This document shows, piece by piece, positions 24,106 to 27,242 of a DNA stretch of 64,000 nt; the stretch's first letter is position 1, and every line of letters begins with the position of its first letter. The stretch is from Poseidonocella pacifica (GTDB taxonomy: Bacteria; Pseudomonadota; Alphaproteobacteria; Rhodobacterales; Rhodobacteraceae): contig NZ_FOJU01000002.1 in NCBI RefSeq assembly GCF_900111875.1, forward strand, positions 496,001-560,000. The letters run 5' to 3'. Under the pieces are notes generated by a model. The model saw only the letters and a program-made list of their open reading frames with translations, was not told the DNA's origin and made no database searches. Made by a program: the position numbers and the translations under genes.

Positions 24106-24948
24106 TTAGCGCCCTTTCTTCTTGGCGTGCCGCGAGCGGATGATGAGCTTCTGCGACGCCTTGTTCTTGTCGCGGGTCCGCTTGCCCTTGGTGTCCTTAC
24201 CCCATGGGGTAACCGGTGTACGACCACCGGAGGTCCGGCCTTCACCACCGCCGTGGGGGTGATCGATCGGGTTCATTGCCACACCACGGACCGACGGGCG
24301 CTTGCCCATGTGCCGGACACGACCGGCCTTGCCGAAGTTCTGGTTGCTGTTGTCGGGGTTCGACACGGCACCAACGGTGGCCATGCATTCCTGACGCACC
24401 ATCCGCAATTCGCCGGAGGAGAGGCGAATCTGTGCATAGCCGCCATCACGACCGACAAACTGAGCATATGTACCGGCGGCGCGTGCGATCTGACCGCCCT
24501 TGCCTGGCTTGAGCTCAATGTTGTGAACGATCGTCCCGATCGGCATGCCAGCGAAGGGCATTGCGTTACCGGGCTTGATGTCGGCTTTGGCGGAGGCAAC
24601 GACAGTATCGCCTACGGCGAGTCGCTGTGGTGCCAGGATATAGGCCTGCTCACCATCTTCATATTTCACCAGAGCGATGAAGGCCGTCCGGTTCGGGTCA
24701 TATTCGATCCGCTCGACGGTGGCCGCCACATCGAATTTAGTACGTTTGAAATCGACGATCCGATAGAGGCGCTTTGCCCCACCGCCGCGACGACGCGATG
24801 TGATCCGTCCGGTGTTGTTCCGGCCGCCCGATTTCGTCAAACCCTCAGTAAGGGATTTGACGGGACGTCCTTTCCACAGCTCCGAACGGTCGATCAGCAC
24901 CAGCGCGCGCTGGCCCGGCGTCGTCGGCTTATACGACTTGAGTGCCAT
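24106..24948 (-). CDS. rplB: 50S ribosomal protein L2
   Basis: A 280-residue protein near the peptidyl transferase centre. The C-terminal block [20 protein letters not shown] contains the functionally important histidine. It is the first gene of its unit, separated from rplW by a terminator and a 540-nt non-coding stretch. Confidence 0.98.
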
Positions 24949-25071
24949 GCTTTCTGTCTTCCGTTTAGCAGTGCGGGAGTTGTTTCCCGCTATGTGTGGG
25001 GCCTCGGAGGGCCCTCTTGGTATAGGGCCCCGAAGGTCCCCGGCGAAAATCTTGCAGCGCTAATAACGAAA

Positions 25072-25089
25072 CCCCGGACGAATCCGGGG
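25072..25089. repeat. Hairpin upstream of rplB
   Basis: Perfect 7-bp arms ccccgga / tccgggg with loop cgaa. Read leftward it is followed by tttcgttatta, so it may be a weak terminator left from the disrupted gene upstream. Between it and rplB a TATACC element with TTCGCC 17 nt before it could be the rplB promoter, but the match is poor. No gene is visible in 24949-25266. Confidence 0.4.
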
Positions 25090-25266
25090 CCGCAGCGCAT
25101 GGGGTCGTTTAGGGGATAGCGGATCAGTCGTCAAGGCACCCTCACCCTTATAACGGGAACATGGGGCAGCTCCTCAAAACAGCGCCCCTGACTGCCTCAA
25201 CCGATCATATGCGCAAGGGGCCTCTAGCCGGGTGATCGACGCGGTTAGGGGTACAAACACAAGACC

Positions 25267-25414
25267 TCAGCCGCCGGCGCGGCGGTGCAAAAAGGCAAGC
25301 AACCCAAGATCGACCAACAGCATCGACCAACAGCATCGGCGCGCCCGCAGGCAGCGGTACCGCCGCGTATGGTGTGACGGTCACCTCCGCGATAGCAGCG
25401 GCTGTCCGCAGCAT
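25267..25414 (-). pseudogene. C-terminal remnant of a VPLPA-CTERM protein gene, frameshifted by a 13-bp duplication
   Basis: Read leftward, a frame gives AEVTVTPYAAVPLPAGAPML, a classical VPLPA sorting motif with its upstream linker. It then becomes non-hydrophobic. The break coincides with the 13-bp direct duplication at 25312-25337. With one copy removed, the frame continues LLVDLGLLAFLHRRAGG and meets a TGA at 25267-25269, which is a complete exosortase tail (motif, hydrophobic helix, RR). Only about 30 codons upstream remain before the rplW terminator, so the body of the gene is gone. It probably represents a lost gene at this junction. Confidence 0.72.
25312..25337. repeat. 13-bp perfect tandem duplication
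   Basis: gaccaacagcatc occurs twice in direct succession (25312-25324 and 25325-25337). The 13-bp length shifts the frame by one. Slippage is the likely cause. It interrupts the VPLPA-CTERM remnant described here. Confidence 0.95.
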
Positions 25415-25429
25415 ACTTGTGTCTTGCCG

Positions 25430-25470
25430 AAAAAATAAAAAAGGCCCCAGCCGCTTTCGCAGCTGGGGCC
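25430..25470 (-). terminator. Strong intrinsic terminator after rplW
   Basis: A 9-bp stem ggccccagc / gctggggcc with a 10-nt loop lies 23 nt after the rplW stop. Read leftward it is followed by a long T-rich tract (plus-strand aaaaaataaaaaa). This is the clearest terminator in the cluster and splits the S10 operon between L23 and L2. Confidence 0.9.
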
Positions 25471-25492
25471 ATATTCTCAACCTTCGATCAGA

Positions 25493-25789
25493 TCAGAGAC
25501 CAGTGGTCACGTCGATGGTGTTTCCCTCTTCGAGGGTCACGTAGGCCTTCTTGACGTCCTTGCGGCGACCAAGGATGCCCTTGAACCGCTTGGCCTTGCC
25601 TTTGGTGATCGTCGTATTGACCGCTTTCACCTTTACACCAAAGAGCGCCTCGACGGCCTCCTTGATCTGAGGCTTGTTGCTGTCGATTGCCACTTCGAAC
25701 ACAACTGCGCCGTTTTCGGACGCCATGGTGGTCTTCTCGGTGATAATCGGCTTGCGGATTACGTCGTAATGTTCAGCTTTCGCGCTCAT
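25493..25789 (-). CDS. rplW: 50S ribosomal protein L23
   Basis: A 98-residue protein at the tunnel exit, a docking site for SRP and trigger factor. Typical sequence is [20 protein letters not shown], then [14 protein letters not shown] and [15 protein letters not shown]. It overlaps the rplD stop by 4 nt. Confidence 0.98.
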
Positions 25790-26403
25790 TTCAAACGAGC
25801 CTCCAGAGCTTCGACACCCGCCTTCGTGATCACGAGGATATCACGCTTGAGAATGTCATACACGTTTGCGCCCATCGTCGGCAGGACGTCGAGCCCTTCG
25901 ATGTTGCGTGCAGCCTTGGCGAACCCTTCGTTGACCGACGCGCCATCAATGATGAGCGCGCGCTTCCAACCGAGGTTCTTCACCTGCTTCGCAAGGGCAC
26001 CGGTCTTGCCTTCGGATTCCGCGGACTCGATCACGACGAGTTCGCCGGCTTTCGCCTTGGCGGACAGGGCGTGGCACAGGCCAAGCTTGCGGAACTTCTT
26101 GGGCAGGTCATGGCCGTGGCTACGCGGGGTTGGCCCCTTGTAGATACCACCCTTGCGGAAGATCGGCGCATTCCGGTCACCGTGGCGTGCGCCGCCGGTG
26201 CCCTTCTGGCGATAGATCTTCTTGGTCGAGTAGCTGGTTTCGGTCCGGGTCTTGACCTTGTGGGTGCCTTGCTGGGCGTTGTTACGCTGCCAGCGGACAA
26301 CGCGGTGCAGGATGTCGGCGCGCGGCTCCAGCCCAAAGAGGGCCTCGTCCAGCTCGACCGACCCGGCAGTGCCGCCGTCCAGATTGATCACGTCGAGTTT
26401 CAT
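25786..26403 (-). CDS. rplD: 50S ribosomal protein L4
   Basis: A 205-residue protein with the extended tunnel loop [25 protein letters not shown] and the globular L4 domain. In E. coli L4 also represses the S10 operon. It overlaps rplC by 4 nt. Confidence 0.98.
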
Positions 26404-27242
26404 TCGTCGCCTTCCTTCTTCTCGGCCTGAATTTCGGCCTCAGCCTCCTTCAGAGCGGCTTCTTCCGCGGCGGCGGCTTCGGCTGCTGCTGCGGCCTCTG
26501 CTGCTTTTGCCTCTGCTTCGGCTGCGGCTGCGGCCTCTTCAGCGGCTTTCGCGGCTTCTTCAGCGGCGGACTTCAGCGCGGCGGGAAGAATCGCGTTCTC
26601 GGGGAACGGCTTTTTTACCGCATCCTTGATCGTGACCCAGCCACCCTTGGAACCCGGAACCGCGCCCTTGACCATGATCAGGCCGCGGCCCGCATCGGTG
26701 CGCACAACCTGAAGGTTCTGGGTAGTCACACGGGCCGCGCCCATATGACCGGCCATTTTCTTGCCCTTGAAGACCTTGCCCGGATCCTGACACTGCCCGG
26801 TGGAGCCGTGCGAACGGTGAGAGATCGACACGCCGTGCGACGCACGAAGGCCGCCGAAGTTGTGCCGCTTCATGGCACCGGCAAAACCCTTACCGATCGA
26901 GGTCCCGGAGACGTCGACGAACTGACCTTCGAAGTAGTGGTCAGCCGTGATCTCTTCGCCAACGGCAATCAGGTTGTCCGCATCAACACGGAACTCAGCA
27001 ACCTTCCGCTTCGGCTCAACCTTGGCAACGGCAAAGTGGCCGCGCATGGCCTTGGAAGTCCGCTTGGCCTTGGCCGTACCGGCACCGAGTTGAACAGCGG
27101 AATAGCCGTGCTCATCTGCGGTCCGCTGTGCGACGACCTGAAGTTTGTCGAGTTGGAGAACGGTCACAGGAATCTGCTTTCCGTCGTCCATGAAAAGCCG
27201 GGTCATGCCGACTTTCTTTGCGATTACGCCAGAGCGCAACAT
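26400..27242 (-). CDS. rplC: 50S ribosomal protein L3 with Ala/Glu-rich C-terminal extension
   Basis: A 280-residue protein. Residues 1-220 are a normal L3 ([24 protein letters not shown]-type loop and [17 protein letters not shown]). About 60 further residues follow, almost only Ala, Glu and Lys, predicted as a single charged helix. Bacterial L3 is usually near 210 residues, so this tail is an addition, though similar tails occur in Rhodobacterales. Codon use in the tail is repetitive (GCx/GAx). Confidence 0.96.

Follow-up and report, generated by a model that had tools for sequence, protein, structure and literature searches.

Between the ribosomal protein genes rplW and rplB of Poseidonocella pacifica lies, on the minus strand, a short piece of DNA that reads like the end of a sorted surface protein but changes frame partway through, and the question raised by this locus is what this piece is and how it came to lie among ribosomal protein genes. 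A preliminary description of the window (the whole stretch of 64,000 nucleotides analysed here) had taken it for a VPLPA-CTERM tail disrupted by a 13-bp duplication, left behind by a gene that was lost through deletion plus slippage inside the S10 cluster. The features on which the following account depends are listed in Table 1. Read along the minus strand, their order is rplW, a hairpin, the tail, a spacer of ~130 nt with no assigned feature, a promoter-like site, a leader and rplB.

Table 1. Features of the rplW-rplB junction of P. pacifica and of the exosortase gene of the same genome.
Feature	Position	Strand	Remark
rplW (L23), upstream border of slot	25493-25789	minus	found in 53/61 genomes
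Terminator-like hairpin after rplW, 12 pairs, then T-rich run	25443-25470	minus	
VPLPA-CTERM (exosortase-type) tail, broken	25414-25267	minus	between rplW and rplB
First tail half: ATG, ~18 pre-motif residues, VPLPAGAPMLLVD	25322-25414	minus	TIGR03370 positions 1-11; self match 521319-521414
Exact 13-bp tandem duplication, frame-breaking	25312-25337	minus	copies 25312-25324 and 25325-25337
Second tail half, other frame, ...LGLLAFLHRRAGG	25267-25326	minus	stop 25267-25269; self match 521270-521326
Promoter-like site of rplB, TTGACG-N17-TAAACG	25106-25134	minus	read from sequence; same layout in G001
L2-Alphaproteobacteria ribosomal leader, RF03142	24951-25041	minus	55 bits, gathering 37.8
rplB (L2), downstream border of slot	24106-24948	minus	downstream of rplW in relatives
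XrtE (L184)	source genome C9:237752-238228		

The frame that starts with the ATG of the first half (ORF 25205-25480) reads MLRTAAAIAEVTVTPYAAVPLPAGAPMLLVD, then AVGRSWVACLFAPPRRR..., and it was found that MLRTAAAIAEVTVTPYAAVPLPAGAPMLLVD leaves the frame of the tail at the perfect duplication, the remainder being continued in another frame. When one copy of the duplication is skipped, the tail becomes VPLPAGAPMLLVDLGLLAFLHRRAGG, followed directly by the stop codon. The VPLPA motif, the hydrophobic stretch and the terminal basic residues of TIGR03370 are therefore all there but divided over two frames, whereas in that family they follow one another in a single frame. Tandem Repeats Finder gave the duplication as 25309-25338, with a period of 13, 2.3 copies, 100% match and a score of 60; three others of its 29 rows for the window were 100% matches, each shorter (15-19 nt), and the single row above score 60, with 102, fell in the coding sequence 26400-27242. 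This minus-strand ORF of 280 aa, which we take from its position to stand in the place of L3, ends in a long stretch that is rich in Ala and Glu and imperfectly repeated.

A VPLPA-CTERM domain is the end of a longer secreted protein. Here, as had been described, the body of the gene is absent: about 18 residues precede the motif, then comes the rplW terminator, which leaves room for at most ~25 codons, and neither a gene body nor a signal peptide lies ahead of the tail. No mobile element was found around it, and the inverted repeats are short and lie inside the tail or the rplW hairpin.

We consider it highly probable that the locus holds what is left of a gene for a VPLPA-CTERM surface protein, namely its last ~45 codons, no longer functional and lodged between two ribosomal transcription units in a slot whose passengers vary. 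A whole VPLPA-CTERM gene, or its 3′ part, would have entered the slot, and the rest of the gene would now be gone. The repeat unit starts with GAT and the three bases after it are again GAT, and replication slippage between these short matches, 13 nt from each other, could have produced the duplication. The remnant probably does nothing, and the sequence analyses found no sign of function in it.

That the junction is such a slot was seen by comparison with relatives. The gap was collected from 33 of the 53 rplW-bearing genomes and from the best 80 of 570 confirmed ones; rplB was within reach in 30/33 and 64/80 of these, respectively, and removal of one duplicate left 93 gaps, among them two from other families of the class (L048 and L049) and one, L096, from a record titled Nocardioides that is probably mislabelled. 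The gap ranged from 7 to 5,520 nt, with a median of 1,235 nt, and was at least 785 nt long in 65 of the 93. In contrast, the rplD-rplW distance was -1 nt in 97 of 103 loci and reached 48 nt at most, and the rplB-rpsS distance was 2-12 nt in 92 loci, these controls being counted only where both genes fall within the stretch. Therefore, as the gap is hypervariable and the neighbouring junctions are near-constant, the scrap is best regarded as a passenger that has decayed in a slot of changing content. As a side observation, the rplW of L096, titled Nocardioides marinus, is 93% identical to the rplW studied here, a sign that the record may be mislabelled or contaminated. In ten loci (L067, L068, L070, L092, L102, L108, L125, L129, L136 and L140) rplB was not found within 8,000 nt downstream of rplW, and either a longer slot or a split cluster would account for them.

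The contents of the gaps differ from relative to relative. Mechanically chosen ORFs of at least 90 aa, some of which will be spurious, had no homologue in another gap in 102 of 147 cases, and two families recurred, in 9 and in 6 gaps. Ten gap ORFs that were tested matched Pfam families unrelated to one another: nine gave FMN oxidoreductase, Hint, DUF1254/DUF1214, TIR, DUF1097 with GFA, AAA, HalD, MatE and fatty-acid desaturase, and the tenth, which is transposase-like, combined HTH_38 with a below-cut-off integrase core. In G001, the one further species of the genus that was compared, the gap measures 2,274 nt and holds a DUF1097/GFA-domain gene.

The borders of the gap recur. Of the 74 gaps of at least 250 nt, 73 have a terminator-like site within their first 120 nt (one shuffled set gave 6), and 39 have a promoter-like motif ahead of the leader (8.1 on average after shuffling); among the 19 gaps shorter than 250 nt, 8 have a terminator-like site. 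Twenty loci were tested for RF03142, and the gathering score was reached in the 13 with gaps of at least 160 nt, without exception, and in none of the 7 with gaps of at most 119 nt. An entry in PMC7247131 gives the L2-Alphaproteobacteria leader as a candidate with the rating '?' and with rplB, rpsS, rplV and rpsC as regulated genes in Alphaproteobacteria. The leader here, directly upstream of rplB and above the gathering cut-off, is a member of this class; it borders the slot, whereas the remnant is something else. The alternative that the tail is a conserved leader does not hold, as the conserved leader lies nearer rplB and a DNA search did not find the tail stretch, over most of its length, in relatives.

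The rplW-rplB junction is thus a hypervariable insertion slot between a terminator-like site and the promoter-like site and leader of rplB. The earlier placing of the scrap inside the S10 cluster should be amended, since the cluster of this genome appears to consist of two transcription units with the slot between them. The remnant thus lies between transcription units, where an insert would not have to interrupt either. Searches covering part of the literature found neither a CTERM remnant nor an rplW-rplB slot described.

It had been expected that in some relatives an intact VPLPA-CTERM gene would separate L23 from L2, and this was not borne out: a motif search with inspection by eye found an intact terminus in none of the 92 other closed gaps, the G001 gap included, and a motif search found none in the 16 stretches that end before rplB among the best 80 of 570. 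Loose motif matches in L050, L053, L054, L058, L061, L062, L077, L114, L123 and L130 were rejected by eye for want of the hydrophobic-then-basic pattern. Other decayed inserts were not clearly seen in the mid-sized gaps of relatives, where the matches mostly look like spurious ORFs spanning the shared promoter/leader stretch. No relative examined shows an intact gene at this site, so that the history proposed here for the scrap is conjectural.

It may be, therefore, that no whole gene was ever lost here and that only a 3′ fragment arrived, by illegitimate recombination. This is a sub-reading of the preferred explanation, so that the odds of the two overlap, and we give it a sizeable chance that falls short of even. 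It agrees with the lack of intact CTERM genes in the other gaps and with the small number of codons for which the rplW terminator leaves room ahead of the motif, but full-length genes of other kinds are housed in the slot in relatives, so that a whole gene could have been there too, and none of 11 inspected loci that match the joined tail proved to be a donor with the same flanks. The proposed loss by deletion plus slippage accordingly stands as far as the remnant and the duplication are concerned, whereas decay by deletion at the site and arrival of the 3′ fragment alone fit equally well.

The preferred reading also requires that the VPLPA-CTERM tail be genuine and not GC-rich spacer DNA that resembles one by chance, and the raw scores, taken alone, would allow the latter. 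The curated cut-off of TIGR03370 (VPLPA-CTERM) is 25.35 bits. The raw peptide had this family as its sole NCBIfam match, over positions 1-11 of 25 and with 13.2 bits (E 0.067), the values for the raw tail being 13.2-14.2 bits overall. When the source genome was scanned, 19 matches had E <= 10, and the raw locus ranked 15th among them. Skipping one copy raised the score to 18.4 bits over positions 1-24 (E 0.0016), and other PEP-CTERM families then matched more weakly. The proposed HMM check of the repaired tail thus does give a match, but one below the curated cut-off; the remnant resembles TIGR03370 in its motif, hydrophobic stretch and basic end and differs from it in its broken frame, its missing protein body and its score, even when repaired.

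A tail model was also built for the purpose. From 47 loci examined, 38 tails were recovered (9 loci had none); 33 genuine tails trained the model and 5, found via DNA similarity, were held out. The repaired reading scored 30.4 bits versus 13.3 for the raw one, and it was the best of 2,728 distinct readings in which 0-40 nt downstream of the motif were deleted. The 38 genuine tails scored 32.8-52.0 bits, a range flattered by the 33 that trained the model, and the five held-out tails 36.9-43.4 bits. With the HMMER composition correction off, the unedited halves ranked 1st and 4th among the 1,790 six-frame peptides of the window; with it on, the first half (the raw frame) scored 3.0 bits, its best stretch 11.9, and the raw open frame fell outside the best eight peptides.

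Matches elsewhere bear on the same point. Some DNA match at E <= 0.1 was obtained in 176 of 295 family genomes (source included), mostly weak and in most weak cases at chance level. The best non-self match of the unedited DNA, 88% over 48 nt with E 5.2e-9 for one genome, was to an intact VPLPA-CTERM gene, and 5 of the 9 non-self DNA loci inspected were intact VPLPA-CTERM termini (L147, L148, L152, L153 and L154), the other 4 not. The joined tail had matches in 58 other genomes of the 295 at E <= 0.01; a CTERM terminus was present in 10 of the 11 loci inspected, and a script found none in L196. The protein of one intact gene (L186) matches both sides of the break: VPLPAGAPLILTGLGLMAFLRRRKS. Although the low raw scores and the many weak DNA matches would agree with chance, the halves join only at the exact duplication, and the DNA matches an intact gene with E 5.2e-9; we therefore regard chance likeness as very improbable and descent from a VPLPA-CTERM gene as supported. 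A donor paralogue was not found in the source genome, where the DNA search returned the locus itself only, sensitive blastn against 18 other loci gave a best E of 0.19 (a 19-nt match at the motif), and no match extended beyond the motif.

An assembly error might have added the second 13-bp copy to a tail that is otherwise whole; this has a slimmer chance still, and the body would be missing regardless. Least probable of all is a live short gene, or a switch that would be restored on going from two copies to one: an ATG precedes the tail and exact copies could revert by slippage, but the tail is preceded by neither a body nor a signal peptide, the G001 gap has no CTERM motif, and a stricter promoter scan of 24500-26200, which also missed the promoter-like site of rplB, returned no site.

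The sorting system of the genome was examined as well. In the source genome, which is 99.78% complete and in 11 contigs, 11 VPLPA-CTERM matches exceed the cut-off and 12 have E <= 0.001; the signal is thus in use there, in keeping with the preferred reading of the scrap. Its sole exosortase/archaeosortase match is XrtE, of the VPEID-CTERM system, with 359.3 bits (cut-off 150); the cognate exosortase XrtD (TIGR04152) did not reach its cut-off there, at 20.3 versus 400 bits. In contrast, G001 has 26 VPLPA-CTERM matches together with XrtD (631.4 bits). A comparison of the 14-kb XrtD stretch of G001 with the source genome gave no DNA match, a result of little weight, 40 of 157 candidates being scored and no positive control included.

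Among 37 family genomes, VPLPA-CTERM matches were present in 12, and XrtD exceeded its cut-off in 7 of these 12 versus 0 of the other 25 (Fisher P 7.7e-5, which is indicative only, the genomes being related); all seven XrtD-bearing genomes thus have VPLPA-CTERM matches. The source genome and another (G033, 93% complete and with no exosortase match) each have 12 VPLPA-CTERM matches without XrtD over the cut-off, and three further genomes have 1-3 matches, likewise without it. Therefore, the source genome possibly holds an orphaned set of VPLPA-CTERM substrates. A longer chain of events, which we think unlikely, would have XrtD lost first, leaving about a dozen orphan VPLPA-CTERM genes, and the scrap as a substrate gene that decayed afterwards in the family-wide rplW-rplB insertion slot of the S10 cluster. 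Only one decayed tail was seen, and to place its decay after a loss of XrtD is speculation.

Taken alone, the remnant is one modest gene fossil, real but minor, and the rplW-rplB slot is the more general observation. A split S10 cluster whose gap takes in unrelated genes is a natural test of insertion tolerance in an essential gene cluster, and a genome with VPLPA-CTERM proteins and no detected XrtD would let the fate of enzyme-less sorting substrates be asked.
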